The position numbers and the translations under genes are program-made. Below are positions 699 through 16,578 of a stretch of 18,837 nt of DNA, in pieces; the first letter of the stretch is position 1; each line of letters starts with the position of its first letter. The notes under the pieces are model-generated. The model was given only the letters and a program-made list of their open reading frames with translations. It did no database searches and had not been told where the DNA came from. The stretch spans positions 1 to 18,837 of the forward strand of contig WJIO01000303.1 in assembly GCA_014730235.1 (NCBI GenBank), written 5' to 3'. This DNA is from Candidatus Poribacteria bacterium (GTDB lineage: Bacteria; Poribacteria; DTPJ01; WJIO01).

Positions 699-3600
699 TT
701 ACTTTATCTCTGCCTGTTCATTAGGCGAAAGATTGCTTCTGGGAGCAAATACAACTGACGGAAGCATCTGGTAGCTGCAATTACATCGGGCCTGACCTTC
801 GGGAACTAGCACCAAACCACCTGCTACAATTGTATGAACCCAGCAGGCAGGTCGGAATCCACCCCAGTTATTCACACCATCGTACCAATCGTCCATCTTC
901 AAGTATCCAAATGTGCCGGAACGGAAAGTAAGCATATGCTTGCCGGCGCAAATCATACCGCAGTTGTATGTCCTGCCGAATGGGCGATCCAGGTCTTTAC
1001 CAGTTTCCAAGGATAAAGAAAAAGGTTCAAGAAAGACTTCATTATCTATTATTATAGGTCTTGATGCGTAGTTATAAGAACCGGGTCCGTTACTGCCGGT
1101 GTAGGGATAATAGTAATCAGGACCTGCGCCGTCGGGAAGGTCCTTCACCCATTCAGCCGGTTTCTTACCTACGCCTATCTCTCTATTCCACAGAAGATCG
1201 CCAGTACTTGCTTTATATGCAGCTATTCTTCCACCTGCTTCTGATGGAAGTTTAAATCTGGTGTGTTGTTGTGTAGCAATAATTATATCATTTTTATGAT
1301 TTACGGCCAGGAGTGTAGCAAAGTCATTATTAACGCTGTATATTTCCTCACCGGTTTCAGCATCCAGAGCTGTCAACTTACCTGGTTTCAATCCTTCAGC
1401 TCTTTCAGGGCTGCGAAGCCTATCCTGTAAGGCCTGGGGACGGTCTATGAAGAAAACCATACCATCACCGATAGCGAAGGTATTATGCCTTATGGAGTCT
1501 TTTGCTTCATACATCCATTTTACCTTGCCGGTTTCGGCATCCATTGCAAAAACTGCCCTGGATTCACTGAACTGGTGGCTCATATCCGCTTCCCGATAGC
1601 CTCCAGTGACTATATGATCTACATCTACAATGCTTCCGTATACTGTTCCATTTTCAGCGAACAGAAAACCCCAGTAATTCAACGCCCCCCATCGGGATTT
1701 GCCGGGATCTTCTATGGATGGTGATCTCAAGGTTTTTACATGATTTCCAGTATATATATCCAATACATGAACCTGTCGGAAGGCCTTGCTGTACTGCTGC
1801 ATACCAACCCTTACATACATCCTATCGCCGTCAATGGCGTAGTTGGATGCTGTTATGGCTGCACCCAAAAGATTGTCCTGATCATAATGCTTGGCCAGGT
1901 CTTCGATATAATAATCCCACACCTGATGACCGTTGTAGGCGTCATAAGCCCGGATGCCGTGTACGCCCTGGACGAACATCAAACCATCTTTGAACAATGG
2001 CGCAACACCCCGGCCATGACGGGATGGAACGTCAAAATCGGGATCGTTCCACCACAATATTCCCAGATCACCCTTAACTTTATCATCCATAGAGCAGAGG
2101 GAGTTACCGGGATCTGCATACATGTGAGTCCATTCACCAGCACCGGAAAGGGCATCCTGAACGCTTTTACTCATGGAACCGGTCTTTCCTACCATCATAA
2201 CCCCGCCGTATGGTCTCTGGACATGGGGAATTTTGGCCTGTATCGGACTTTCCCCTGTATCCACAGATTTCCGGGATATTACAAGGTTTGCGAAGTAACT
2301 GGGATATCTGTCCAGGGAATATTCGCTTTGCTGGACAACTACGCGAGAACCGTATATGCCAGCCGAATTTAGTATCTTTCGGGCCTTGCGGACATTTTCC
2401 GGGTCAGGGTCAACGGCCACCACATAAAGGTTTGTCCTTTTTACGATTTCATAAGCAAGTGCCCCATCTCCGCAGCCTATGTCAATGCAGTATCCGTGAG
2501 TTATATCCGATTCCTTGATAATTTCCCGGGCGGCTGTCTCATATAAATCGTTTTCACCATAAGGTGAGTTATTAATTTCTTTGGCGATAATAGATGCCCT
2601 TCCAGCCCTCTTAATATCATCGTAGCAGTATATATAACCTTTATCAGTACTTATGAAGAGTTTACCCTGGGCCACAGCTAAACCGTAAGGTATACCTTCG
2701 ACTTCTGCCGCCCATTCTATATCCTTCTTTTCCGTATCAAATACAGTTACTTTTCCGTTGGTTGTAGCAGCTATTACCTTATCATGGGCTGATATAAGGG
2801 ATATGGTCTGGGCTTTTTCAATGGTCTGTATAGTCCATGCAGGTTCGCTCATATAATATACGTCAATATCATTTCCCCTGCGGTCCTTTGCCTTTTTGGA
2901 ATATACAAAGTTTTCAACATCATAGGCTTTAAGCTTTAGGTCTACAGGGTCAACAGAGAATATATATTGAGAATTCATGGCCAGACCGGGGGATTTAAGC
3001 TGGTCACCAGTAATTCTTTCGCCATTAGATTCTCCAAATATGCCATTTGTCAGACCGATTATCTCTTCATAATCCCTGGTGTTACCTGTTGTTACAAACA
3101 GATAATCGTTGTTGGCAAATACCCTGTCGCCGCCGTAACTTCCGTATTTTTGCAAATGGTAATAGGACAATTCTCCAGTATTTATGTCAAAGCCAGCAGG
3201 CACAGAGCGTCCTGTAGGCACGATAACATGATCATCTGTAACCAGCAGGTAACCCTGACATGATATTCCACTGTAGGCTTCGGCGGCTCCATGAGGCTGT
3301 TTATACCATATTTCACCGGAACTGTCGTTTATCCATTTAACTTCACCTGTTTCGGGATTCATGGCCACAATGTCAATACCATCGGAGGGCCATATTCCTG
3401 CACCGTAATATAGAACATCGTTCTTAACGGCAATGCCACCGCGAGAGGGCCAATTGGATACCATTCTATTGTTACCCAGTTTATATATATCAGCCCGGAA
3501 ATTCTTTTTCCAGATCAGTTCGCCTTTATCCGCTGAGACGCAATAGAGATTACCGTCGTCGCTGTTTATAAAGAGCTTATCTTTCCATACAGCCGGGGCC

Positions 3601-3971
3601 ATGCGGACAGGGGCATCGGTGAAGAATGTCCATACTTCCTCGCCTGAGTCAATATTAACAGCGTGTATCTGGTGATCCGTTGAGCTTCCATAATACATTA
3701 ACTTGTCTTTGATCACCGGCTGGTAGACATGATCGGAAGTAATGCGGGTATGAACTCCTACCCACGCGGGGGTTGGTGCGCTGGCCTTAATCAGCCATGA
3801 CAATCCCAGGTCTGATGGAAGTTTATTATCTATATGACCGCTTCTGCTGGCATCTGCCCGGAACTGAGTCCAGTTGTTATTTGTGTAATTATCTGTCTCG
3901 CTGTATATGTTTGCTGTGATAACCAGTAAACATATAAAGATAATTAAAATCTTGAAAATTTTTGTTTTCAT
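699..3971 (-). CDS. exported PQQ-type beta-propeller protein with internal methyltransferase fold (protein A: P2-MT-P1)
   Basis: This 1090-residue protein starts at an ATG with GGAGG 7 nt upstream. A signal peptide covers about residues 1-24 (MKTK, a hydrophobic stretch, then IYSET). Residues 34-452 form a first propeller with quinoprotein-type repeats such as AVNIDSGEEVW, CVSADKGELIW and AMNPETGEVKW. Residues about 465-600 are a class I methyltransferase fold: motif I is DIGCGDGA (497-504), followed by an acidic strand end, AVDPDPENV. After EWTH (613-616) a second propeller runs to the C terminus (AMDAETGKVKW, AYKASTGDLLW) and contains Cys-x-Cys at 1063/1065. The family is common in planctomycete-like bacteria and its function is unknown. 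Binding of PQQ itself is not shown; the name reflects only the repeat type. The gene is transcribed divergently from the operon carrying its paralogue, protein B. Periplasmic or surface location is inferred from the signal peptide. Confidence 0.9.
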   Translation of the reverse strand: MKTKIFKILIIFICLLVITANIYSETDNYTNNNWTQFRADASRSGHIDNKLPSDLGLSWLIKASAPTPAWVGVHTRITSDHVYQPVIKDKLMYYGSSTDHQIHAVNIDSGEEVWTFFTDAPVRMAPAVWKDKLFINSDDGNLYCVSADKGELIWKKNFRADIYKLGNNRMVSNWPSRGGIAVKNDVLYYGAGIWPSDGIDIVAMNPETGEVKWINDSSGEIWYKQPHGAAEAYSGISCQGYLLVTDDHVIVPTGRSVPAGFDINTGELSYYHLQKYGSYGGDRVFANNDYLFVTTGNTRDYEEIIGLTNGIFGESNGERITGDQLKSPGLAMNSQYIFSVDPVDLKLKAYDVENFVYSKKAKDRRGNDIDVYYMSEPAWTIQTIEKAQTISLISAHDKVIAATTNGKVTVFDTEKKDIEWAAEVEGIPYGLAVAQGKLFISTDKGYIYCYDDIKRAGRASIIAKEINNSPYGENDLYETAAREIIKESDITHGYCIDIGCGDGALAYEIVKRTNLYVVAVDPDPENVRKARKILNSAGIYGSRVVVQQSEYSLDRYPSYFANLVISRKSVDTGESPIQAKIPHVQRPYGGVMMVGKTGSMSKSVQDALSGAGEWTHMYADPGNSLCSMDDKVKGDLGILWWNDPDFDVPSRHGRGVAPLFKDGLMFVQGVHGIRAYDAYNGHQVWDYYIEDLAKHYDQDNLLGAAITASNYAIDGDRMYVRVGMQQYSKAFRQVHVLDIYTGNHVKTLRSPSIEDPGKSRWGALNYWGFLFAENGTVYGSIVDVDHIVTGGYREADMSHQFSESRAVFAMDAETGKVKWMYEAKDSIRHNTFAIGDGMVFFIDRPQALQDRLRSPERAEGLKPGKLTALDAETGEEIYSVNNDFATLLAVNHKNDIIIATQQHTRFKLPSEAGGRIAAYKASTGDLLWNREIGVGKKPAEWVKDLPDGAGPDYYYPYTGSNGPGSYNYASRPIIIDNEVFLEPFSLSLETGKDLDRPFGRTYNCGMICAGKHMLTFRSGTFGYLKMDDWYDGVNNWGGFRPACWVHTIVAGGLVLVPEGQARCNCSYQMLPSVVFAPRSNLSPNEQAEIK

Positions 3972-4184
3972 TTTTTCCTCCGTTTTATCTAATTATATTT
4001 CCATATATAATTCTTCACATTGTTATAACATTATAAAGTTAAAAACAGATTAACACGAGGTTATTCTTTAGTTCAGATTTATATAACGAAAACTCTTGCA
4101 GAAAGATTATTAAAGAGGTATTATAACAAAACGACATTTTATATGCTGATAAAAATGGCAAAATATGTGAAAGGAAATTATATT
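3972..4184. promoter_or_regulatory. divergent promoter region
   Basis: This AT-rich spacer lies between protein A (-) and the UroD-family gene (+). It holds the ribosome binding sites of both genes (GGAGG for A near 3979-3983; aaagga before 4185). A good plus-strand promoter sits at 4096-4124. A weaker minus-strand -10 (TATAAT, 4035 down to 4030) has no clear -35. I see no obvious operator repeat. Confidence 0.55.
4096..4124 (+). promoter_or_regulatory. sigma70-type promoter of the glycan/sulfatase operon
   Basis: A -35 box TTGCAG (4096-4101) and a -10 box TATTAT (4119-4124) are separated by exactly 17 nt. The predicted start near 4131 would leave a leader of roughly 54 nt before the ATG at 4185. 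This is the only good plus-strand promoter seen ahead of the operon. Confidence 0.5.
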
Positions 4185-5249
4185 ATGACATACCGGGAGC
4201 TTTTTAACGAAATCATGTTTTATGGGGAATTTGACCGTATGCCTGTTATACATTGGGCTGGTTGGCCAGAAACCCGTGAAAGATGGCTTAAAGAAGGTCT
4301 TCCTGCTGATAAAAGCGAACATGAATTTTTTAACGCCGTTCCCATGTGGACTGGCGTGGGTGTCAACCTGGGTATTATACCGGGTTATGAATATGAGGTA
4401 ATAGAGGATACCGACGAATATCGAATATTTCGAGGCGGCGATGGAGTAATCTGTAAGGATTGGAAAAATAAAAGCTGTATTCCCCATTACATTGATTTTA
4501 CCCTGAAAGGGGCCAAGGAATGGGATGATTTTAAGAAGAGGTTACAGCCTGATCCTGTTCGTATCCCAAAGGATCTGGATAAAAGAATAGCCAATGCAGA
4601 AGCCTCTGGCCTTCCTGTTTTTGTAAATACAGCATCCATGATGGGCTGGATTCGAAACTGGATGGGTGTTGAGAATATGTCATATCTTATGTATGATGAT
4701 CCTGACGTATACGCTGATATGGTTATGACTCTGGCGGACTTAACGTGTTGGGGTATTGATCAGGTGCTTCCTAAAGTAAAGGTAGACGCGGGTTTTGGAT
4801 GGGAGGATATATGTGGCAGTTCAGGCCCATTGGTCAGTCCTAATATTTTTGAGAGGTGCGTCGCCCAGGGTTATCGTAAGATAAGAAATAAGCTGGAAGA
4901 ATATGGCGTGAAGCTTTATGGTATTGATACCGACGGTGATGTCACCGACCTTATAGGACATTGGCTTGATGCTGGCGTAAATATTCAATTCCCCATACAG
5001 GTAAGTCCCTTTGGTGGTGATGCCATGAAATTCCGGAAGATGTATGGAAAGGAACTCCGGGTTATAGGTAATTTTGACAAGCTGGCACTGGAGAAAGGTC
5101 ATGATGCTATTGAAGCTGAGATTCAGCGGTTGCTACCCCTTATGAAAGAGGGTGGATTTATTATGATGCCGGATCACCTGATAACTCCCGGAGTTGCGCT
5201 TGAGGACTATATATGGTATCTGGAAAGGGTCAGGGAACTAAGGTTTTAG
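4185..5249 (+). CDS. uroporphyrinogen decarboxylase (UroD) family protein
   Basis: This is a 354-residue cytoplasmic TIM-barrel protein. I chose ATG 4185 because aaagga lies about 10 nt upstream and MTYRELFNEIMFYGEFDRMPVI matches the usual family start (TYRE..., D-R-x-P). An in-frame ATG at 4143 would add 14 residues with no ribosome binding site. The segments GYEYEVIEDTDEYRIF and MPDHLITPGVALEDYI are characteristic of UroD-superfamily members in catabolic clusters of planctomycete-like bacteria. These are not heme enzymes, and their substrates are mostly unknown. Where corrinoid methyltransferases of the MtaA/CmuA type carry the zinc-binding HxC, this protein has GIDTDGD (246-252). Zinc-dependent methyl transfer is therefore not supported. 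It is the first gene of the operon, 9 bp before the CPBP gene. Confidence 0.85.
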   Translation: MTYRELFNEIMFYGEFDRMPVIHWAGWPETRERWLKEGLPADKSEHEFFNAVPMWTGVGVNLGIIPGYEYEVIEDTDEYRIFRGGDGVICKDWKNKSCIPHYIDFTLKGAKEWDDFKKRLQPDPVRIPKDLDKRIANAEASGLPVFVNTASMMGWIRNWMGVENMSYLMYDDPDVYADMVMTLADLTCWGIDQVLPKVKVDAGFGWEDICGSSGPLVSPNIFERCVAQGYRKIRNKLEEYGVKLYGIDTDGDVTDLIGHWLDAGVNIQFPIQVSPFGGDAMKFRKMYGKELRVIGNFDKLALEKGHDAIEAEIQRLLPLMKEGGFIMMPDHLITPGVALEDYIWYLERVRELRF

Positions 5250-5258
5250 GCAGATTTA

Positions 5259-6011
5259 GTGAAGCGATTTATCAGATTTATAACAATAGAACAATGGGGA
5301 AAAATTGAACAGGAATACAGCGGGGATTATGAAAAGCCTGATCTAAAAGGCATATTATGCCTTTTATTTTCGGTTTTAATGCTGACTGTTATGAGATATT
5401 ATGGTCGGCCCAGGATATTTAGACTGCATTTCAGCAAGTTTGTAAACAACTGGCTCCTGCCAACTATATGGCCCCATTTATACTGGGTAACCTTTGCCTT
5501 GTTTTTATATCTTGTTCTGCCTTATCTTTTTATCAGGTTTATATTTGGTGAAAAAATAAGGCAGCATGGATTTTCTCTGGCAGGTATAAGCAGGTACAAA
5601 TGGATCTATCTAGGGTTGACACTGGTGGTAATACCCCTGGTAATCGGCGCATCTTTCTTCCCCAGCTTTATTGAAAAATATCCCCTGTATTCCGGAGCAA
5701 GAGATACTGCTGCGGGATTTGCTGTATGGGAGATAAGTTACGCCTTATATTTTATAGCTCTTGAATTTTTCTTCAGGGGTTTTATGCTTTTTACTATGGT
5801 CAGGTATATTGGAGTTTATGCTATTTTTGTTATGGTCATACCTTATGTGATGATCCACTTCGGAAAGCCCTTTGCTGAGACTCTGGGTTCCATAATTGCC
5901 GGAATGGCTTTAGGAACTTTATCTTTACGGACAAGATCAATATTTGGTGGTGTGATTATTCATGTTTTGATTGCATGGACAATGGATTTACTGGCGGTTT
6001 TGATGGGATAA
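5259..6011 (+). CDS. CPBP-family intramembrane metalloprotease (CAAX-like)
   Basis: This 250-residue membrane protein starts at GTG, 9 bp after the stop of the UroD gene, with only a weak ribosome binding site, so translational coupling is likely. After a cytoplasmic N terminus there are about six to eight hydrophobic segments (about 30-45, 68-96, 114-134, 153-170, 183-199, 209-222, 228-249). The CPBP/Abi motifs are visible in order: E169-FFF-R173 (motif 1, with the usual preceding Glu replaced by Leu), H200 in VMIHFGKPFAE (motif 2, with E207), and H235 in GGVIIHVLIAW (motif 3). These place glutamate and histidines as probable zinc ligands. Family roles include prenyl-protein processing, bacteriocin self-immunity and protein maturation; none can be chosen here. 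Its place in a catabolic operon suggests processing or membrane handling of an operon product, which is inference. Confidence 0.85.
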   Translation: MKRFIRFITIEQWGKIEQEYSGDYEKPDLKGILCLLFSVLMLTVMRYYGRPRIFRLHFSKFVNNWLLPTIWPHLYWVTFALFLYLVLPYLFIRFIFGEKIRQHGFSLAGISRYKWIYLGLTLVVIPLVIGASFFPSFIEKYPLYSGARDTAAGFAVWEISYALYFIALEFFFRGFMLFTMVRYIGVYAIFVMVIPYVMIHFGKPFAETLGSIIAGMALGTLSLRTRSIFGGVIIHVLIAWTMDLLAVLMG

Positions 6012-6044
6012 CTTCCATTTTACAAAAGAAAGGAAATAAAATCT

Positions 6045-7034
6045 ATGGATAAACCAAAGATAGGTGTAATAATACCAAAAGAAGCGAGGGAAAGGTTATT
6101 TTCTCCAGAAGATATAGAGCGTTTGAATAAAATAGGCAATGTAAAATGGACGGATTCATCAAGCCAGCTTTCCAGTCAGGAAGCCGTTGAATTTTTAAAA
6201 GACTATCAGATAGGCGTTGGTTCATGGGGAACACCCTGGCCTGATGAAGTAGTTGTAAATGGCTGTCCTGAATTAAGGCTTTGGGTACATGCTGCCGGTT
6301 CGGTGCGACGCTTTTTTGGTAATCATCTCAAAGATAAAGATATTACCATTGCATCATGCGCCCCTGCTATCGCTGAGAACGTGGCCGAGATAACTTTGGG
6401 TCAGCTTATAATTGGACTCAAGCGAACACTGGAAAATGCAGCAGCAAACAAAAAGGGAAAAGCAGGTAAGCCATCAAACAGCATGGCCCTGGCCTCCGCC
6501 ACTATCGGTGTAATCGGTGCATCCCAGGTTGGAAGACGAACAATACGAAACCTTAAGCATTTTGGGCCCAGGATACTCCTGTATGATCCCTTTGTGTCAA
6601 AGGAAAAAGTGGAAGAATTAGGTGTGGAATTGATGGAAGATTTGACAGAGCTTTGCCGACAGAGTAACGCTGTTACCCTTCACACGCCGGCCCTGCCCTC
6701 GACGGAAAAGATGATGGGCGCAGATCAGTTTAAGGCCATGCCGGATGACTGCGTTTTTGTCAATACCGCCCGGGGGATGTGCGTTGATGAACAGGCGTTG
6801 ATCGCAGAATTGGAGAAAGGCCGTTTGTTTGCTTTTCTGGATGTTTCGTCACCAGAACCAACACCCGACGACAGCCCTTTCAGAAAGCTGCCTAACGTGA
6901 TATATACATCCCATATTGCCGGTGGCGCAGATTCTAAAATCGGTAAACAGGCTGTAGATGATATTGAAGCATTTATTAACGGTAGATCCCCAAAGATGGC
7001 TGTTACCTTTGATATGCTGGACAGGATAGCTTAA
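6045..7034 (+). CDS. D-isomer-specific 2-hydroxyacid dehydrogenase, NAD-binding
   Basis: This is a 329-residue cytoplasmic oxidoreductase with gaaagg about 12 nt before the ATG. The nucleotide-binding Rossmann domain begins near residue 150 (TIGVIGASQVGRR); the usual GxGxxG appears as G158-A-S-Q-V-G163. Catalytic residues are visible: R243 in NTARGM, E271 in SSPEPTP and H290 in TSHIAGG, the Arg-Glu-His set of the family. N-terminal and C-terminal parts form the split substrate domain. The reaction would be reversible NAD(P)H-dependent reduction of a 2-oxoacid to a D-2-hydroxyacid. The precise substrate (glycerate, phosphoglycerate, or a sugar-derived acid) cannot be read. In this operon it may act on a sugar acid released from the glycan, which is inference. 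It is spaced 33 bp from the previous gene and 25 bp from the next. Confidence 0.9.
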   Translation: MDKPKIGVIIPKEARERLFSPEDIERLNKIGNVKWTDSSSQLSSQEAVEFLKDYQIGVGSWGTPWPDEVVVNGCPELRLWVHAAGSVRRFFGNHLKDKDITIASCAPAIAENVAEITLGQLIIGLKRTLENAAANKKGKAGKPSNSMALASATIGVIGASQVGRRTIRNLKHFGPRILLYDPFVSKEKVEELGVELMEDLTELCRQSNAVTLHTPALPSTEKMMGADQFKAMPDDCVFVNTARGMCVDEQALIAELEKGRLFAFLDVSSPEPTPDDSPFRKLPNVIYTSHIAGGADSKIGKQAVDDIEAFINGRSPKMAVTFDMLDRIA

Positions 7035-7059
7035 TATCCTGATTCTAAAGGAGGGAAAA

Positions 7060-10000
7060 ATGTATACAACTGGTGTTACCCTTGGAATGATAATGTTCGT
7101 CTATGTTACTTCAGCATCATCCCAGGATATACTTCCGGATTTTGATGATTATTACCTGCCTGATTATATCCCTGATATGATGGAGTTGGAATATAAACTA
7201 CCGATTGATGACTCAATAACCCCTTCCCATGAAGTTCCCCGGATATACCAGCATAGCGGCGATGCAGGCCCGGATCAGACGTTCTTTCTCGTTGGCTCAA
7301 ATCTAACTGAAGAAGTATTTGTATGGGGTAGAGATGCGGATAATCCAGAGGGAAAACGCTGGGCGGTAAAGACTTACCTTGTAAATGATAACTATCTTTC
7401 CGTCACACTGCCGGACAGATGCCCCGACTCTTTATTTATTGTATGGGTGAAGAACTATGCCGGTTGGTCAAGACCTTTCAGGATAAATACCCCTCAATCC
7501 TGGTGGTGCTGGCCAAAAGAACCCCTTCCGGGACAGGACTTAAGCATATTTGGCAGGGATCTGGGAAGACGACCGGATCGGACAACGGCCTTTGTATACC
7601 TTGCCAGTGATAACTCAGAAGGAGAATGGCTTGATGTGTTAAGTTCTGATAAATACACTGTTACAGTGTATTTACCTTATGATTTACTACCGGGTGATTA
7701 CAAGTTGTGGTTTCATGCCGGATGCGGAGGTTGCTTTGGCTGGGGAGAGCCTTTGTCCCTGAAAATTGCAGAGGAATCGGAAGAAGTTTATGAGTTTGCC
7801 TATACTCCTCCCTATGAAAAAGAGAATCTACAGGATAAGATTGATGATTTACAGGAAAGCGGCGGCGGTGTTTTAAAACTGGACGAGGGTGTATATGAAT
7901 ATAAGGGAACGCTGGAAATACCCAGGAATGTGACAGTAGAAGGAGAGGGACTTGATAGAACCATACTTCAGGTTGTCCAGAGTGAACCTCAGGACTTTGC
8001 CTGCATTACTAGTGCAACATGGAACCAGGCCCCGGGTCGGGTGCATACTCCCGGCGACATTATGGAATATAAATTATCAGTTCCTGCTTCGGGTAAATGG
8101 GCTGTATGGTTGAGATATGCTACTGAGATGTCACCCTGGAATCAGCCGGGAGTCAGTGGAAATATGGTTATTGAAGTAGACGATGGAAACGCGGTTAAGC
8201 TGGATAATCTATCCAACACTGGCAGTTTTGGCACTTTTAAATGGTCTCATTCTGCCGATATAGAGCTAGAAGCCGGAACTCATATACTCAGATGGCGAAA
8301 TGTAAAAGGTGGCGGTATCAGCCTGGATGCTTTTGTATTTGCACTTAATCCTGATTATGAACCAAGTGACAGCCCGTTCCCGGAAACAGGAAAAGATGTT
8401 ATAGTTTTACAGGGTGAAAATGTTACAAAATTCCAGACAAAAGAGGGTGTTTTACCCGGCAGAATGACGGTGGCAGTAGCTTTAACCGGTGATAACGCTG
8501 CCATAAAAGACTTAACAATAAGCGCAAATCCCCAGATAAGTGATGGTGTTATTATTCAGAGCAATGAACCACTGAAATGGGTTAAAGGATGCCAGATTGA
8601 AGGATGCCGGATTGCTGATATGGAAGGTAAACATGCGGAAATATGCGGCGTCAGGTTTATCAGGGCTAAACAGGCAATAGTAACTGGTAATGAAATATGG
8701 GGTCGTTCCCCGTTATATTTCAGCGGTATAAGAAACTGCAATATCAGTAATAACAAGCTTATACCTGTTACCCGGTTCGGTGCTAACTCAGAAGCCGCCA
8801 TGCAAGGACGTAATGAGGTTATAGAGGAGTGTGTTATTGAAAATAACCTGGTAGCATCACCTCCCGGAGCGGAAGCCGGAAGCCCCCAGACACGCCGTTT
8901 AATATGGGTTTCCACCGGGCGAGGCTCTGTGACAAAGAACTGGTTTGCCAATAACGGCGTAGTCCAACCCCAGGGACCCGGTTCTTCCGTAGGTGCAGGA
9001 CAGATGCGTTTTGGTGGGGTGGCCGGAACAGACCAGAACGTGGGTGAGATGATATTATTCGAAGCTAACCACCGAACCATGTATTTTGGCCCGTTAGTTG
9101 GTGGAGATAAGCAGTCTGTGTTACTGCCTGAAACTATTCCACCTACCCCGGAAAATCGTCTGGGAAGTGTGGAAAGGGAGCAGTTGGCTTATGATGAAGA
9201 AGGAAATGAAACTCCTTTCTGGCCCCCAGATGTTGAAGATGGCTCTCCTGAACCGCCAATAACCGAATATTATGTTTCCATATTTAAAGGAAAAGGACAG
9301 GGGCAAACCCGGAGAGTTGTTAAAAGGGAAGGTGAAACGCTGATCCTGGACAGACCCTGGCGCGTTGCGCCGGAGGAGGGAAGCGTTGTAGCTGTGGGAA
9401 CGGCCTTTTATCGTAATCATATAGTGGGTAACTATACTCCTGACGGCATGACGGGTATTCAACTGTGGATATCCTGCATGGAAAACATAGCATCAGGCAA
9501 TACCATCGCAAGGATGCGCCGCCCGGCTTTTTACCTCTATTCCAACGGCACGACCCTGGCAAGCTCTATGCCAAGAAGGTGGAACCGGGGTATCAGTCCG
9601 TTGTTCTTTAATCATATCGAGGGTAACTATAGCCATGAATGCAGCGCAGGTGCATTGGTGACAAGTGGAGATTATCCTGACATACCAATTGAATTTCCCA
9701 GGGCTTTAGGAAATGTTATCCGGCAGAATTCCTTCATCAAAAGCCGAAATGACGGGGTTATAATAGTCAGCCGGAAGGGAAATGCAGCCGATGGCGATAC
9801 ATCACCTTCCATACTGGGAACTATTGTGGAATTCAACGTGGTAAGGGATGCCGCTATTGCCTACCATTCCAGCAACGGCAGCGATGGTGTATTATTCCGT
9901 CGTAACCATGCCTATTTCTGGTATCCTGTCAGCAACTCAGATGATCCCCCGATAGCTTTTCAGATAGACCGGGCCGGGGCTGATGTGATCATAGAGGATA

Positions 10001-10074
10001 ACAGCGTTGAGGGAAAAGTAGGGGAGATGAACCCAAAGTACTCGATAATTATAAAAAAGCCTATAGAAGAATAG
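7060..10074 (+). CDS. exported right-handed parallel beta-helix protein with inserted carbohydrate-binding-like domain
   Basis: This 1004-residue protein has a strong ribosome binding site (aaaggaggg) before the ATG. A hydrophobic leader (about 1-22, ending SASSQD) lacks the usual positive charge near the start but is otherwise signal-like. Residues about 60-240 form two IPT/TIG-like beta domains (FFLVGSNLTEEVFVWG; PGQDLSIFGRDLG). From about 258 a pectate-lyase-type helix starts (DKIDDLQESGGGVLKLDEG; VTVEGEGLDRTILQV). It is interrupted at about 317-433 by a jelly-roll segment (MEYKLSVPASGKWAVWLRY ... GGISLDAFVFAL) resembling CBM6/35-type modules. The helix resumes at about 444 and runs to the end with repeated N-x-I/V ladders. 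The likely role is binding or cleavage of polysaccharide (lyase, hydrolase or epimerase). I see no diagnostic catalytic motif of one family. It is followed 15 bp later by the sulfatase. Confidence 0.85.
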   Translation: MYTTGVTLGMIMFVYVTSASSQDILPDFDDYYLPDYIPDMMELEYKLPIDDSITPSHEVPRIYQHSGDAGPDQTFFLVGSNLTEEVFVWGRDADNPEGKRWAVKTYLVNDNYLSVTLPDRCPDSLFIVWVKNYAGWSRPFRINTPQSWWCWPKEPLPGQDLSIFGRDLGRRPDRTTAFVYLASDNSEGEWLDVLSSDKYTVTVYLPYDLLPGDYKLWFHAGCGGCFGWGEPLSLKIAEESEEVYEFAYTPPYEKENLQDKIDDLQESGGGVLKLDEGVYEYKGTLEIPRNVTVEGEGLDRTILQVVQSEPQDFACITSATWNQAPGRVHTPGDIMEYKLSVPASGKWAVWLRYATEMSPWNQPGVSGNMVIEVDDGNAVKLDNLSNTGSFGTFKWSHSADIELEAGTHILRWRNVKGGGISLDAFVFALNPDYEPSDSPFPETGKDVIVLQGENVTKFQTKEGVLPGRMTVAVALTGDNAAIKDLTISANPQISDGVIIQSNEPLKWVKGCQIEGCRIADMEGKHAEICGVRFIRAKQAIVTGNEIWGRSPLYFSGIRNCNISNNKLIPVTRFGANSEAAMQGRNEVIEECVIENNLVASPPGAEAGSPQTRRLIWVSTGRGSVTKNWFANNGVVQPQGPGSSVGAGQMRFGGVAGTDQNVGEMILFEANHRTMYFGPLVGGDKQSVLLPETIPPTPENRLGSVEREQLAYDEEGNETPFWPPDVEDGSPEPPITEYYVSIFKGKGQGQTRRVVKREGETLILDRPWRVAPEEGSVVAVGTAFYRNHIVGNYTPDGMTGIQLWISCMENIASGNTIARMRRPAFYLYSNGTTLASSMPRRWNRGISPLFFNHIEGNYSHECSAGALVTSGDYPDIPIEFPRALGNVIRQNSFIKSRNDGVIIVSRKGNAADGDTSPSILGTIVEFNVVRDAAIAYHSSNGSDGVLFRRNHAYFWYPVSNSDDPPIAFQIDRAGADVIIEDNSVEGKVGEMNPKYSIIIKKPIEE

Positions 10075-10089
10075 ATTTATGAGGATGTT

Positions 10090-11442
10090 ATGACAGATAA
10101 TCGGAAACCCAATTTTATATTGATTTTATGCGATAACCTGGGCTTTGGCGATATAGGTTGTTTTGGTTCGGAGGTGCATAATACACCAAATCTGGACAAT
10201 ATGGCTGAGGAAGGTATAAGACTTACCAGTTTTTATGTGTCCAGTCCTGTTTGCACACCATCCAGAGCCAGCTTTATGACTGGATGCTATGCCCAGAGGG
10301 TTGACATGCACCTGGATGAAAAAGGGGGATGCGTTTTAAGACCTGTTTCGGCAAAGGGATTGAATCCCAATGAGAATACCATAGCCAAAACGCTGAAACA
10401 ACAGGGATACAATACGGCTTGTATCGGCAAATGGCATCTGGGAGATCAACCGGAGTTTTTACCGACAAATCATGTTTTTGACTACTATTACGGTATTCCA
10501 TACAGCGAAGACATGATCCATGAGAGAAATCCAGCATGGCCTCCCCTTCCTTTGATGCGCAACGAAAATGTCATCGAAGCTCCTGTTGATCTTAAAACAA
10601 TAACTGTACGTTATACACAGGAAGCCGTTGATTTTATAAAACGCAATGCCGATAATCCTTTTTTTCTGTATATACCACATGCTACTCCCGGAAGCGAAAA
10701 AATTCCCCAGGTCAGCAAAGAATTTTATGGTAAATCATCCAACGGCCGTTATGGTGATTCGGTGGAGGAGCTTGATTGGTCTACAGGACAAATACTTTCC
10801 ACCCTAAGGAAATTAAATTTGGATGATAAAACCCTGGTTGTTTTTACCTCAGATAACGGTGCTGTGCAGGGTCATGGCGGCAGTAATGAGCCATTCAGGG
10901 GTTGGGGTTATGATACGCTGGAAGGTGGTATGCGTATGCCATGTATTATCCGATGGCCCGGTAAAATACCATCCAGAGAAGTAAGCGATGAATTATGTAT
11001 GGCGATGGACTTCTTACCTACTTTTGCGGGTTTATCAGGAGCAAATTTACCCCGGGATACAATAATTGACGGTAAAGATATATGGCCCATAATCGCATGT
11101 GAAAATAAAGCCGTTTCACCCCATGAAGTGTTTTATTATTATCAGAGAGATCAGCTTCAAGCCGTCAGGTATGGTAAATGGAAACTGCATCTTCCTATGG
11201 AAGCCAGATACAATCATGGTGGACGAAACACCGGAAGCAGTCCGTTGATGTTGTTTGATCTGTATGCGGATATAAAAGAATCAACTGATGTATCCAGAAA
11301 CAACCCGGATTTAGTAAAGAAAATCCTTGAAATAGCAGAAAAAGCCCGTTATGAATTGGGTGATTTAGGAAATCCGGGTAGTCAGCAAAGGAAAGCCGGT
11401 TTTGTTTCTAATCCTGCACCTCGAACTCTAAATAAGGAGTAA
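10090..11442 (+). CDS. formylglycine-dependent sulfatase (S1 family), no signal peptide
   Basis: This 450-residue protein starts with MTDNRKPNFILILCDN, so it has no signal peptide and should be cytoplasmic. The sulfatase signature C55-T-P-S-R59 followed by ASFMTG is intact. C55 would be converted to formylglycine by a maturation enzyme encoded elsewhere. GKWHLG follows at the usual distance, and D255-N-G completes the calcium site. The first metal site reads C14-D15-N16 instead of the common Asp-Asp. FYYYQRDQLQAVRYGKWKLH near the C terminus matches the typical end subdomain. It would hydrolyse a sulfate ester on a sugar or related compound; the position-specific substrate is not readable. It is tightly linked to the beta-helix gene (15 bp) and to protein B (6 bp), which supports a shared glycan substrate. 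Confidence 0.93.
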   Translation: MTDNRKPNFILILCDNLGFGDIGCFGSEVHNTPNLDNMAEEGIRLTSFYVSSPVCTPSRASFMTGCYAQRVDMHLDEKGGCVLRPVSAKGLNPNENTIAKTLKQQGYNTACIGKWHLGDQPEFLPTNHVFDYYYGIPYSEDMIHERNPAWPPLPLMRNENVIEAPVDLKTITVRYTQEAVDFIKRNADNPFFLYIPHATPGSEKIPQVSKEFYGKSSNGRYGDSVEELDWSTGQILSTLRKLNLDDKTLVVFTSDNGAVQGHGGSNEPFRGWGYDTLEGGMRMPCIIRWPGKIPSREVSDELCMAMDFLPTFAGLSGANLPRDTIIDGKDIWPIIACENKAVSPHEVFYYYQRDQLQAVRYGKWKLHLPMEARYNHGGRNTGSSPLMLFDLYADIKESTDVSRNNPDLVKKILEIAEKARYELGDLGNPGSQQRKAGFVSNPAPRTLNKE

Positions 11443-11448
11443 ATATTC

Positions 11449-14400
11449 ATGCAGTTAAAATTATCAATAGTGAAATTGTTTTTATTAGTTATAATATCAG
11501 TTTTTATAATTATCCCTACTACAAATGCAAATCAGGCTGAGGATATTCTGGATGCGATGGATGTTAAAGGTGGTCTGGTGGTTCATGTCGGTTGTGGTGA
11601 TGGTAATCTCACTGCTGACTTGAAAATAAATGACAGTTACATTGTGCATGGTCTGGATACGGATGTAAAGAATGTAGAGGATGCTCGTAAATACATCAGT
11701 TCTCTTGGTATCTATGGCGAGGTATCCGTTGATCATCTAAAGGGTGAAAAACTTCCCTATATTGACAATATGGTGAATCTGGTAGTTTCGGAGAAACTGG
11801 GTAATATTCCCATGGATGAAGTAATGCGCGTCCTTTGTCCAAATGGTGTTGCTTATATTAAAGACGGTGATGAATGGGTAAAAAAAGTTAAACCAAGACC
11901 AGAAGAAATTGACGAATGGACTCATTATCTTCATGATACTGACGGCAACCCGGTAGCCCAGGATTCAGTAGTTGGCCCTCCCCGTCATCTACAGTGGGTA
12001 GGTAGTCCAAGATGGTCAAGACATCACGATCATATGGCCAGTATGAGTGCCCTGGTCTCATCCAATGGGCGAATATTTTATATAATGGACGAAGGATCAA
12101 CTGCATCTATAGTGCTTCCGTCGGATTGGAAAGTAATTGCCCGGGATGCCTTTAACGGTACTATCCTGTGGAAACGATCTATTGATAAATGGCATACCCA
12201 CCTTTGGCCATTAAAAAGCGGCCCAGCTCAGCTTCCGCGACGATTGGTATCTATCGGTGATATAGTCTATGTAACACTGGGTATTGATGCACCGCTTTCG
12301 GCTCTGGATGCGGCTACAGGAGAGACAATCCGAACCTACGATGGAACAAGGGCAACTGAGGAAATATTGTATAAAGATGGTATACTTTACCTGCTGGTTA
12401 ATGAAAATCCTGAAAAGGAGGAGAAGAAATATTCAGGTGTGCAGGTCATCAGGAAAGATGCAAGAGAAACGGCCTGGGATGCGCCGCCCAGAAAAGTTAT
12501 GGCAGTTAATGCTTTTACCGGAGAGAAAGTGTGGGAAATAGATCAGACTGTAGTTCCATTGACAATGGCCACAGACGGCAAAGGCCTATACATGCATGAT
12601 GGTGAAAAAGTGATCAGCCTGAACCCACAGAACGGTGATTTAAACTGGGAATCCAAACCCCTGATGCGATGGGCTACTATTAGAACATATTTTGCCCCGA
12701 CCCTGGTGGTTAAAGATGGTGTTGTTATCTTTGCTGGTGGTGAAAATATGGTCCCTCACAGAGGTGGCAAAGACACCATGACCGCGTTATCAGCAGAAAC
12801 TGGCAAAGAGCTATGGACAGCACCGCATCCTCCCGGCGGTTATCAATCACCAGAAGATGTTATTATCGCCGGTGGTCTTGTATGGGCAGGGGCTACAACT
12901 GGTGGGGGATATTCAGGAATTTTTACAGGAAGAAATATAAAAACCGGAGAACTGGAAAACGAATTTCCGCCGGATGTTGATACTCACTGGTTTCACCATC
13001 GCTGTTACAGGGCTAAAGCCACTGAACAGTATCTCCTTACATCCCGAACAGGTATAGAATTCCTGGATATAGATCAAAACCACTGGATCTGTCATCACTG
13101 GGTCAGGGGAGGCTGTCTTTACGGAATAATGCCATGTAACGGCTTGATTTATGCTCCACCCCATGACTGCGCCTGTTACATAGAGGCCAAGCAGTTTGGC
13201 TTAAATGCCCTGGCCCCAGAGTCTGAATCAAGGAAAATTCCAGCAGAGGTATCAGATGAAGGACGACTTAAACAAGGCCCTGCTTATGGAGTTTTCATTG
13301 AAGCTGTTTCTGGGAATTCCTATGATTGGCCTACATACAGACAGAATATAACCCGCAGCGCATCTACAGAAGCGTCAGTGTCAGAGAAGGTAAAGGAATC
13401 GTGGGAAACTGAAATGGGAACAAATCTCACCAGCTTAACAGTCGCTGACGGCAGGATTTATGTCGCTTCTATTGATACTCATACAGTCTATGCCCTGGAT
13501 GAAAAATCCGGCGAAGTTTTATGGAGCTACATGGCTGGAGGCCGGGTAGATTCGCCACCGACTATACACAAAGGGCGCGTGTTCTTTGGTTCTGCCGACG
13601 GTTACGTATACAGCCTTCGGGCCATTGATGGGGAACTTATTTGGCGTTTCCGGGCGGCCCCGGTAGACAGACGTTTGATGTCGTTTGAACAGCTTGAATC
13701 AGTCTGGCCTGTTCACGGCAGCGTAATGATTCGGGATGATGCTCTGTATTTTGTTGCAGGAAGGTCTATGTTTATTGATGGCGGTCTGCGCCTCTTTAAG
13801 CTTGATCCTGTAACAGGTAAAAAACTGGTGGAAAAAGTCATGGACGATAAAGATCCAAAGACTGGTGAAAACCTACAGGTATATGTAGACACATTAAATA
13901 TGACTGTAGCTCTGCCGGATATTCTATCCAGCGATGGCGATAATATATACATGCGCTCAATGCCCATTGATTTTCAGGGAACCCGTAAGAAGCTTGCTTA
14001 TACCAATGCAAATCAACAAAAAAGCAATTACGTACATCTCTTTGCCCCTACGGGCTTTCTGGATGGAAGCTGGTGGCATCGCTCTTACTGGGTATACGGA
14101 ACCAGTATGGCTTCGGGATACGGTGGCTATTATCAGGCCGGTAAATACGCTCCGGCTGGTCGGATCATCGTCGCTGATGATGAAAATATATACGGATTTG
14201 GTCGCAAACCCCAATATTACAGGTGGACAACACCTATGGAATATCACCTCTTTGCTGCTAGCAGGGAAATACCTGAACCAAAATTCCAGGAGAGCCGCAA
14301 CAGTGGTTCGTGTGTCAGAGTAGCAAAATCGGCAAGCCTTAATCCGGCGAATAAACCCGTTACTGTAGAAGCATGGGTTATGCCCGGTAATTTAAATGGA

Positions 14401-15354
14401 GCTATAATTTCCAGAGGAGGCCCTTCTCACGGTTACTGTCTCTATCTGAAAGACGGAGTTCCGCATTTTTCCATAAGATCAGATGGTACTGTCAGGACAG
14501 TTTATTCCCGACTATATGTAACCCCGGGAAAATGGGTGCACCTTGCAGGTGTATTAATAGATGAAGACAGGATGAATCTTTATGTCAATGGAACTCTTGT
14601 CAAGAAGGTCATGGATGATATTTCCCAGACAGGAATGATAGTCTCTGATCCTGCTCAAGCAATGGAGATAGGAGCAGATGAAGGCGGTGCAATAGGATCA
14701 GACTACCAATCACCCTACGGCTTTACAGGATTAGTTGATGAAGTGAAAATATATCACAAGGCCTTTACATCTGACGAGATAAGAGAACATTACAATAATC
14801 CCGAAAGCAAGCCTTCTGAGAATGATAAAATAGTTTTGTATTATACCTTTGATGATGAAAACGCCAAAGACGCGTCGGGAAATAATAATCATGGAAAGGT
14901 AGAAAAAGGTGTATATGTAGACGGCAAAGTCGGCAAGGCCATAAAATTCTCAGGAGAAGAGAAGAAGACCACTCAGATTTCCAACCAGTATGCCGTTGAG
15001 CATAAATGGACTCATGAATTACCTCTGCATGTGCGTTCTATGGTGCTTGCAGATGATAAGATATTCATAGCCGGTCCACCTGACCTTGTAAATGAGGATG
15101 AAGCCCAGAATTTACTGGATGATCCCGAAGTTCAGGCCCTGCTTGTGGAGCAAGAGAAGTCATTAGAGGGCAAAAAAGGCGCAACCCTCATGGTTATATC
15201 CAAAACAGACGGTGAGAAGCTTGCGGAATATAAACTTGATTCTGTTCCTGAATGGGATGGAATGGTTGCCGCCAACGGATGCCTATATTTTTCCACTATG
15301 GATGGGAAAGTTGTATGTTTTGAGGCATTGGAGATAGAAAATGCAGAAAATTAA
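11449..15354 (+). CDS. exported methyltransferase-fold / PQQ-type propeller / LamG protein (protein B: MT-P1-P2)
   Basis: This 1301-residue protein begins 6 bp after the sulfatase, with aaggag just upstream. A signal peptide spans about residues 1-27 (hydrophobic core, then PTTNANQA). Residues about 30-140 are a class I methyltransferase fold with motif I HVGCGDGN (46-53), followed by GLDTDVKNV. EWTH (156-159) opens propeller P1, with repeats such as ARDAFNGTILW, AVNAFTGEKVW and ALSAETGKELW, closing with HDCACY (C574, C576). Propeller P2 starts at W627 (WPTYRQNITRS) with ALDEKSGEVLW and SLRAIDGELIW. It is interrupted at about 945-1165 by a LamG-like jelly-roll and finishes at about 1170-1293. 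P1 and P2 match the C- and N-terminal propellers of protein A respectively, in swapped order. Function is unknown; probably a periplasmic or surface glycan-binding or redox protein. Confidence 0.9.
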   Translation: MQLKLSIVKLFLLVIISVFIIIPTTNANQAEDILDAMDVKGGLVVHVGCGDGNLTADLKINDSYIVHGLDTDVKNVEDARKYISSLGIYGEVSVDHLKGEKLPYIDNMVNLVVSEKLGNIPMDEVMRVLCPNGVAYIKDGDEWVKKVKPRPEEIDEWTHYLHDTDGNPVAQDSVVGPPRHLQWVGSPRWSRHHDHMASMSALVSSNGRIFYIMDEGSTASIVLPSDWKVIARDAFNGTILWKRSIDKWHTHLWPLKSGPAQLPRRLVSIGDIVYVTLGIDAPLSALDAATGETIRTYDGTRATEEILYKDGILYLLVNENPEKEEKKYSGVQVIRKDARETAWDAPPRKVMAVNAFTGEKVWEIDQTVVPLTMATDGKGLYMHDGEKVISLNPQNGDLNWESKPLMRWATIRTYFAPTLVVKDGVVIFAGGENMVPHRGGKDTMTALSAETGKELWTAPHPPGGYQSPEDVIIAGGLVWAGATTGGGYSGIFTGRNIKTGELENEFPPDVDTHWFHHRCYRAKATEQYLLTSRTGIEFLDIDQNHWICHHWVRGGCLYGIMPCNGLIYAPPHDCACYIEAKQFGLNALAPESESRKIPAEVSDEGRLKQGPAYGVFIEAVSGNSYDWPTYRQNITRSASTEASVSEKVKESWETEMGTNLTSLTVADGRIYVASIDTHTVYALDEKSGEVLWSYMAGGRVDSPPTIHKGRVFFGSADGYVYSLRAIDGELIWRFRAAPVDRRLMSFEQLESVWPVHGSVMIRDDALYFVAGRSMFIDGGLRLFKLDPVTGKKLVEKVMDDKDPKTGENLQVYVDTLNMTVALPDILSSDGDNIYMRSMPIDFQGTRKKLAYTNANQQKSNYVHLFAPTGFLDGSWWHRSYWVYGTSMASGYGGYYQAGKYAPAGRIIVADDENIYGFGRKPQYYRWTTPMEYHLFAASREIPEPKFQESRNSGSCVRVAKSASLNPANKPVTVEAWVMPGNLNGAIISRGGPSHGYCLYLKDGVPHFSIRSDGTVRTVYSRLYVTPGKWVHLAGVLIDEDRMNLYVNGTLVKKVMDDISQTGMIVSDPAQAMEIGADEGGAIGSDYQSPYGFTGLVDEVKIYHKAFTSDEIREHYNNPESKPSENDKIVLYYTFDDENAKDASGNNNHGKVEKGVYVDGKVGKAIKFSGEEKKTTQISNQYAVEHKWTHELPLHVRSMVLADDKIFIAGPPDLVNEDEAQNLLDDPEVQALLVEQEKSLEGKKGATLMVISKTDGEKLAEYKLDSVPEWDGMVAANGCLYFSTMDGKVVCFEALEIENAEN

Positions 15355-15511
15355 GGCTGGTGGTATCATAAAAAATATCAATCCGGTCAAAATAAATCTT
15401 AAATCATTACCTAATAATCCTGGTGTTGCCAGCACTATTTTCAAAGCCCTGGGTAAACACGATATAAATGTTGAATTTACTAAAGAAAATCAGGCTTTGT
15501 CTGGAAAATAA
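15341..15511 (+). CDS. 56-codon protein resembling half of an ACT domain
   Basis: The ATG at 15341 overlaps the end of the preceding gene by 14 nt and has ggaga 6 nt upstream (15330-15334), the arrangement of a translationally coupled gene. It fills most of what would otherwise be a 180-bp gap. The product, beginning MQKIKAGGI, contains NPVKINLKSLPNNPGVAST followed by IFKALGKHDINVEF. This matches the first beta-alpha-beta of ACT regulatory domains (strand, N-N-P-G-V-A turn, helix, then I-N-V-E/D strand). The second half of the roughly 70-residue ACT fold is absent, and the next ribosome binding site follows directly. It is either a naturally short, possibly dimerising ligand-binding peptide or the remnant of a larger amino-acid-sensing protein. 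ACT domains commonly bind amino acids or other small ligands; the ligand here is unknown. Confidence 0.6.
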   Translation: MQKIKAGGIIKNINPVKINLKSLPNNPGVASTIFKALGKHDINVEFTKENQALSGK

Positions 15512-15534
15512 ATAAAATTGGAGGATATTTTTAA

Positions 15535-16578
15535 ATGGCTGAAAAACTTCCTTTTCAAAAACCAGTTTTTATAAGCGGCGAATATGGATACCATACTTTT
15601 CGTATTCCTGCTGTTATTGTATCAAAAGAGGGCACCATTCTTGCGTTTTGCGAGGGTCGTAGAACCAGCGGCAGCGATCACGGAGACCTTGATATTGTTT
15701 TAAGACGCAGTTGCGATAATGGCAAAACATGGACAAATCCTATAATAGTTTACGGTGAAGCTGGTAATATAACCATTGGCAATCCATGCCCTGTAGTTGA
15801 CCAGAGTACCGGAACTATATGGTTGCCATTTTGCCGCGATAATAACGATGTTCTTATAACAAAAAGCAATGATGACGGTATAACCTGGTCAGAACCGATT
15901 GACATAACAAAAGACGTTAAGAAATCCGATTGGGGATGGTATGCCACAGGACCTGGTGTGGGGATTCAGATTAAATACGGCCCTCATAAAGGGCGAATGG
16001 TTATTCCCTGCGACCACAGAGAAAAGATGGATGATAAATGGTTTATGTTCTCACATGTCTTTTACAGTGACGACGCGGGAAAAACTTGGCAATTGGGAGG
16101 TTCTGTGGCCATACATACAGATGAATGTCAGTTGGTGGAATTAACTGATGGAAGGCTTCTGATAAACATGCGTAATTACTGGGAGAGAACAGGTGGAGAG
16201 GCTAAAAAAGGTGATATGCGCGCTTTGTCATGGAGTGATGATGGGGGAGAAACATGGTCAGAATTGGAGTTTGATGAACAATTAATCGAACCTATATGCC
16301 AGGCCAGTTTTATACGCTATGACAAAAAACTACTACTTTTCTCTAATCCAGCCGATAAATCCAACCGGATTAATATGACTGTACGTATAAGTTGTGATGA
16401 AGGTGAAAGTTGGCCTTTATCAAAATCACTTTATGCCGGTCCTTCTGCATATTCATGTTTGACCGTATTGCCTGATATGAGTATTGGATGTTTATATGAA
16501 TGTGGGGAAAAGAGCGCGTATCAGACTATTACTTTTGCTAATTTTGATTTAGATTGGTTTTCAGATAAAAAGGAATAA
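15535..16578 (+). CDS. exo-alpha-sialidase-like BNR/Asp-box protein (GH33-like), no signal peptide
   Basis: This 347-residue six-bladed propeller has ggagg 12 nt before the ATG. It carries the sialidase RIP motif (TFRIPAV, R23) and five Asp boxes: SCDNGKTW at 59, SNDDGITW at 111, SDDAGKTW at 178, SDDGGETW at 234 and SCDEGESW at 286, spaced 52-67 residues apart. D48 in SDHGDLDIV aligns with the catalytic acid of GH33 enzymes. Y306 in GPSAYSCLTVL sits where the nucleophilic tyrosine is expected. The protein has no export signal, so it probably acts on imported oligosaccharides, or is not a true sialidase; many relatives of this kind are annotated only by family and could act on other acidic sugars. 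It is the last gene of the operon and is followed within 15 bp by a strong hairpin. Confidence 0.88.
   Translation: MAEKLPFQKPVFISGEYGYHTFRIPAVIVSKEGTILAFCEGRRTSGSDHGDLDIVLRRSCDNGKTWTNPIIVYGEAGNITIGNPCPVVDQSTGTIWLPFCRDNNDVLITKSNDDGITWSEPIDITKDVKKSDWGWYATGPGVGIQIKYGPHKGRMVIPCDHREKMDDKWFMFSHVFYSDDAGKTWQLGGSVAIHTDECQLVELTDGRLLINMRNYWERTGGEAKKGDMRALSWSDDGGETWSELEFDEQLIEPICQASFIRYDKKLLLFSNPADKSNRINMTVRISCDEGESWPLSKSLYAGPSAYSCLTVLPDMSIGCLYECGEKSAYQTITFANFDLDWFSDKKE

Follow-up and report, generated by a model that had tools for sequence, protein, structure and literature searches.

We analysed a window of 18,837 nucleotides (positions 1 to 18,837 of contig WJIO01000303.1, GenBank assembly GCA_014730235.1) from a Candidatus Poribacteria bacterium, in which two large genes encode predicted proteins, A and B, that hold the same three modules in different orders (Table 1). 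One module is a class I methyltransferase-like domain (MT), and the other two are distinct beta-propellers of the pyrroloquinoline quinone (PQQ)-like type, here called P1 and P2; Pfam models for PQQ_2 propellers and for methyltransferases are matched by both proteins. On inspection of the sequences, a hydrophobic N-terminal signal segment is present in A, in B, and in those separate MT-P1 and P2 genes, described below, whose start is available. The P2 module of B is interrupted by a LamG domain, which makes B unique among the eight family members of its own genome. LamG also lies inside P2 in two relatives of B (L032 and L036), and was therefore gained in B's own branch.

Table 1. Positions of the A and B genes and their modules within the window, and copies of the companion gene F3 on other contigs
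Feature	Position	Strand	Basis
Protein A, 1090 aa, order P2-MT-P1, signal-peptide-like N-terminal segment	699..3971	-	Open frame
A P2 propeller, residues 28-455	2607..3890	-	PDB structural matches YxaL/BamB; P2a-P2b profile score 300
A class I methyltransferase-like domain, residues 470-608, motif I DIGCGDGA at 497	2148..2564	-	Pfam Methyltransf_25 1e-6; MT-MT score 128
A P1 propeller, residues 609-1079	735..2147	-	Pfam PQQ_2, best stretch 791-933; P1a-P1b score 247 over 387 columns
A P1 invariant cysteines C1004, C1043, C1063, C1065	777..962	-	Family-wide cysteine pattern
Protein B, 1301 aa, order MT-P1-P2 with LamG insert, signal-peptide-like N-terminal segment	11449..15354	+	Open frame
B methyltransferase-like domain, residues 27-150, motif I HVGCGDGN at 46	11527..11898	+	Pfam Methyltransf_25 3e-7
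B P1 propeller, residues 151-600	11899..13248	+	Structural matches Rv3035, tetrathionate hydrolase
B P1 cysteines C519, C556, C574, C576	13003..13176	+	Family-wide cysteine pattern
B P2 propeller, first part, residues 620-955	13306..14313	+	Profile match; BamB structural match covering both P2 parts
B LamG (concanavalin-like) domain inserted in P2, residues 958-1111	14320..14781	+	Pfam Laminin_G_3 7.5e-20
B P2 propeller, last part, residues 1181-1301, ST..G...C at 1282	14989..15351	+	Motif; BamB structural match
F3	L092:7353-8522		
F3	L059:4530-5819		
F3	L021:10782-11891	-	
F3	L170:8544-9641	-	

Correspondence of the modules and the mobility of P2

The first-pass annotation had read A and B as paralogs related by a permutation of domain order, based on matching landmarks, all of which lie at the residues it quoted: MT motif I (A497 and B46), EWTH (A613 and B156), the CxC near the end of P1 (A1063-1065 and B574-576), W...R....RS at the start of P2 (A34 and B627), and ST..G...C at its end (A441 and B1282). 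This agreement is far beyond chance. In both proteins the CxC belongs to a four-cysteine pattern, C-37/39-C-18/20-CxC.

The family has four P2-MT-P1 members in this genome (A, C271, C141, and C327), three MT-P1-P2 members (B, C205, and C157), and one, C76, that consists of MT-P1 without P2. Module alignments built from A, C271, C141, C327, and C76 (A-type) and from B, C205, and C157 (B-type) were compared with hhalign. The two P2 alignments matched with a score of 300 (E = 1.7e-41), the two P1 alignments with 247 (E = 2.1e-33) over the whole propeller from end to end, and the two MT alignments with 128 (E = 1e-21). Scores for the crossed pairs were 92 (A-type P2 against B-type P1) and 58 (A-type P1 against B-type P2), the level expected for propellers in general, and the P2 of A is thus closer to the P2 of B than to its P1. 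The limits of P2 are alike in both orders, with a start at WPTYR.D..RSG and an end at [ST]T..G.[IV].C, and A-type and B-type P2 align from end to end. The profile scores, together with the module trees and the correlated module histories given below, back a permutation in the order of homologous modules.

Structure prediction gave a propeller fold for P2 of both proteins, each with a match to BamB, and for P1 of B. For A (mean predicted local distance difference test score [pLDDT] 78.3, predicted template modeling score [pTM] 0.83), P2 matched YxaL (Z 30.3, root mean square deviation 3.2, 334 residues aligned) and BamB (Z 28.4); matches to this model were filled by P2, and the P1 fold was matched through the model of B instead. 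That model, of residues 140-1301, is weaker (pLDDT 68.7, pTM 0.60). Its P1 (model residues 8-450) matched Rv3035 (Z 25.0) and tetrathionate hydrolase (Z 23.4, 355 aligned), and its P2 matched BamB (Z 22.1) over B645-1293, so the stretch after LamG falls inside the P2 match. No solved structure of a family member was found by sequence search, and literature searches found no description of a propeller-methyltransferase family, which is apparently undescribed.

Scanning GTDB genomes with a three-row P2 alignment, we recovered 80 loci from Planctomycetota, Verrucomicrobiota, Lentisphaerota, Kiritimatiellota, Hydrogenedentota, Omnitrophota, Sumerlaeota, and Balneolota; because the scan relied on P2 patterns, it under-represents systems that lack P2. 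The family is abundant in bacteria of the Planctomycetes-Verrucomicrobia-Chlamydiae type. The arrangement of each locus was established by mapping every frame with hidden Markov models, and the 89 systems comprise 43 P2-MT-P1 fusions, 15 MT-P1-P2 fusions, 30 two-gene systems, and a single MT-P1 alone. Genes of a two-gene system are adjacent or nearly so, with the MT-P1 gene first in 25 and the P2 gene first in five. Separate P2 proteins have a hydrophobic leader of their own that ends just ahead of the WPTYRH motif, and split MT-P1 proteins stop right after P1. A frameshift artefact as the source of the split genes is ruled out by their own signal peptides, their occurrence at 30 loci, and the existence of both gene orders.

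Wherever both were detected, in fused and split systems alike, MT stands immediately before P1, and P2 is thus the movable part of a system of two parts. The proposal that the three modules close into a ring is neither needed nor favored, since P2 alone moves or splits off; as read from the genes, the arrangements support a unit of MT-P1 plus P2, in which a two-part swap with split-gene forms would take the place of a three-part ring.

Both fused orders can stand side by side: on a Pirellulales contig (L034:2-7140), an MT-P1-P2 gene is followed directly by a P2-MT-P1 gene, and the P2 profile matches 25 times in the genome in question (G024, 4.2 Mb), which amounts to a strong expansion. The nearest relatives of A, C271, C327, and B lie in different phyla (Verrucomicrobiota, Omnitrophota, Hydrogenedentota, and Planctomycetota), and A was matched in only three of 20 genomes searched as relatives, its own included. 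Horizontal gain of the paralogs in this genome is likely.

History of the domain orders

In a tree of MT plus P1, all MT-P1-P2 proteins lie on one side of a branch (100*), the opposite clade being made up of P2-MT-P1 and split forms, and only six changes are needed for five arrangement states. Further genomes added after this tree revealed another lineage with the MT-P1-P2 order, the c-type. The P2 tree, rooted on standalone propellers, begins with a trichotomy of c-type (99*), b-type (100*), and a clade of P2-first and split forms (97*). Since two of these three deep lineages carry MT-P1-P2, this order is tentatively favored as ancestral. The c-type members (L144, L145, L147, L148, and L149) form a third, divergent lineage about equally far from A- and B-type, and MT motif I is lost in all four rows scored.

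The split clade includes L079 and L101, fusions of the form P2-LamG-fn3-MT-P1 that nest (97*, 99*) beside L096, in which the MT-P1 gene precedes the P2 gene; by this placement they are a second, independent P2-first fusion. Distances in the MT-P1 and P2 trees are correlated (r = 0.96 overall, 0.90 in fused P2-first, 0.94 in MT-first, and 0.84 in split systems, with shuffles near 0), which argues that the modules moved as a set, although part of the correlation comes from shared species history.

Multidomain proteins that became circularly permuted through fission and fusion were reportedly the subject of work by Weiner and Bornberg-Bauer (2006), which PMC2588589 cites. The family likewise holds the same modules in cyclic shift together with split-gene forms, but here the two fused and the two split arrangements are found together, often within a single genome. 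Fission followed by re-fusion would be the most economical, and is the likeliest, route to the order difference between A and B. The difference probably goes back to one ancient change that passed through two-gene forms like those of the present. Covalent order is probably immaterial because P2 is predicted to dock on MT-P1 either way.

Two other histories were considered. Tandem duplication followed by loss of the ends would trim (MT-P1-P2)(MT-P1-P2) to P2-MT-P1, and tandem family pairs do exist, with two MT-P1-P2 genes at L031 and two P2-MT-P1 genes at L073 and at L068. However, no partly trimmed fused intermediate was seen among the surveyed loci, and split genes exist in both orders and have been re-fused at least once, so that we place this route on the unlikely side. 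Alternatively, two different free-standing propellers could have been recruited independently to either end of MT-P1, in which case the shared P2 motifs would be general propeller motifs. These genomes commonly encode free-standing PQQ-like propellers, a W-P-Q-W-R start is also found in the standalone C205 protein, and P2 monophyly against six standalone propellers received 92% in the Shimodaira-Hasegawa-like approximate likelihood ratio test, unstarred and with long outgroup branches. Against this, a profile of A-type P2 only gave about 104-163 bits to B- and c-type P2 and at most 77 to standalone propellers; the WPTYRHD..RSG start and ST..G end are common to both types; and the module trees agree. 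With a profile that held both P2 types, family P2 modules scored at least 138 bits and other propellers at most 83 in six genomes. Independent recruitment thus appears quite improbable, and a common origin of the P2 modules is likely on these sequence comparisons.

Probable function, companions, and partnership

Motif I (GxGxG) is intact in 33 of 94 family MT domains, including those of A and B, and is lost entirely in some members (such as L084), and the acidic residue at the position of A523 is kept in 80 of the 94. Class I S-adenosylmethionine (SAM) methyltransferases (Methyltransf_25/_11; PDB 3dlc is nearest by sequence) have the Rossmann-type domain and motif I region in common with the family, as well as the acidic residue after strand 2, which most members retain. 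The family domain differs in being secreted, in keeping GxGxG in only about a third of cases, and in always being joined to P1. Its leader suggests that MT is extracytoplasmic, an odd location for a methyltransferase fold because SAM is not expected outside the cytoplasm. Given erosion of motif I in about two-thirds of members together with signal peptides, catalytic methylation is unlikely as the family function, and a structural or ligand-binding, non-methylating role of the MT-like domain is more likely.

P1 and P2 share their fold, by sequence and predicted structure, with PQQ-like/BamB-like propellers (PF13360; YxaL, BamB, Rv3035, and tetrathionate hydrolase), from which the family is set apart by having two different propellers and an MT-like fold in one secreted system. 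The P1 pattern C-x(30-60)-C-x(14-26)-CxC occurs in 89 of 89 complete modules, the five rows without it being incomplete modules, and the cysteines could form either disulfides or a metal site. Heme c domains were rejected, as CxxCH is absent from every member. A periplasmic enzyme, namely a PQQ-type or cysteine/metal-centered oxidoreductase in which the MT-like domain would aid substrate or cofactor binding, would suit the quinoprotein similarity, the four invariant cysteines, and the conserved positions R1040, R651, and H616. However, the curated quinoprotein models score far below their cut-offs (59 and 56 bits against 480 for TIGR03075; 34 against 833 for TIGR03074), and the cysteines may be plain disulfides; we regard this reading as unlikely. 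The curated BamB model TIGR03300 also remained below cut-off (89 and 72 bits against 285).

A link to carbohydrates is indicated by attached domains, which include LamG (in B and in split MT-P1 proteins), malectin (C271, C141, L054, and L157), and CBM96 (L054), and by sulfatases near family genes in 16 loci, among them the window and the neighborhood of C141. Most likely the proteins act outside the cytoplasm as a binding scaffold whose ligands are probably carbohydrates or sulfated glycans. In C271 (L021:6314-10552, minus strand; residues 1102-1199), which has a signal-peptide-like start, P1 is followed by a PAS-like and a malectin domain, two domains that make an odd pair in a secreted protein.

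Many split loci carry a further gene, F3, directly after P2. It encodes a secreted, C-terminally membrane-anchored protein with the motifs CxVPVFRYALERW and CSCxVKxxNPGxD that matched no Pfam family. F3 also adjoins the P2-first system L059, C271 of this genome (its one copy here, with none near A or B), and MT-P1-P2 genes (L036, G021:C239, and L170). Among 59 genomes from the phylum of G021, 10 have F3, all within the 13 with A-type P1 (hypergeometric probability about 5e-9, relatedness ignored). In a second phylum, five genomes have F3, and in the two with no family match at the cut-off (G097 and G105) it lies alongside an FtsX-type permease, in G105 also with ThiF-like genes, these names being given by sequence resemblance to typed L092 genes. 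A strict tie between F3 and the family was rejected on account of these two genomes; F3 is a frequent, non-obligatory companion. F3 accompanies FtsX-type ATP-binding cassette (ABC) permeases at L166, L167, L168, L169, and L092 and ThiF-like genes at L167, L168, and L092; at L167 and L168, ModA-like binding proteins are also present, and the vicinity has no propeller gene. Sets of F3 and FtsX-type permease are possibly a separate transport system. A tentative alternative to a glycan scaffold is an extracytoplasmic two-part machine of MT-P1 and P2, often coupled to F3 and an FtsX-type ABC transporter, in which the methyltransferase fold and the four-cysteine propeller would have a new chemical or binding role and every linkage, fused or split in either order, would be tolerated.

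B occupies the sixth place in a plus-strand run of genes in the window (4143-16578), which encode in turn a URO-D-like protein, a CPBP protease-like protein, a 2-hydroxyacid dehydrogenase, a beta-helix protein, a sulfatase, B itself, and a BNR protein. Gaps are mostly 6-33 bp, with 180 bp before the BNR gene; the run is probably a polysaccharide-related operon. A diverges from it, and the idea that A and B flank one promoter region does not hold, as the 171-bp upstream gap of A (3972-4142) is shared with the URO-D-like gene that begins at 4143. The further suggestion that they are partners is weakly supported, and by co-occurrence alone. Their genes lie within 12 kb, the two types stand side by side at L034, and in the 59-genome sample all four genomes with B-type P1 are among the 13 with A-type (hypergeometric probability about 0.002, relatedness ignored), a co-occurrence that may reflect only similar lifestyles. 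On the other side, copy numbers are unequal (four A-type, three B-type, and one MT-P1 in this genome; ten against one or two in G064), the two types are rarely neighbors apart from L034, and A and B belong to different transcription units. In the second phylum, only A-type is present in G086, and in G111 only B-type reached the cut-off. It is therefore very doubtful that A and B form subunits of one complex.

On balance, we hold with moderate confidence that A and B belong to one undescribed secreted family composed of MT-P1, in which a methyltransferase-like fold is invariably linked to a four-cysteine propeller, and P2, a second propeller; that these parts occur fused as in B, fused as in A, or as two adjacent secreted proteins, their order having changed by fission and re-fusion; and that they likely serve as a carbohydrate-binding scaffold, in which the MT-like domain would be structural or ligand-binding. 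Several points weigh against this account. Support for P2 monophyly is unstarred, the branch on which the A and B orders part has no known intermediate, and duplication with end loss could also yield the difference. Evidence for carbohydrate binding comes entirely from attached domains and neighboring genes, and some ligand binding by the MT domains is possible, with about a third keeping GxGxG and most the acidic residue.

A and B add a new family to the examples of permuted domain order, one in which split forms in both gene orders still exist. The survival of both fused and both split orders makes the family good material for studying how domain order changes and how far linkage order constrains assembly. 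The split forms lead to a direct prediction, that MT-P1 and P2 bind each other, and would allow function to be tested with small separate proteins.

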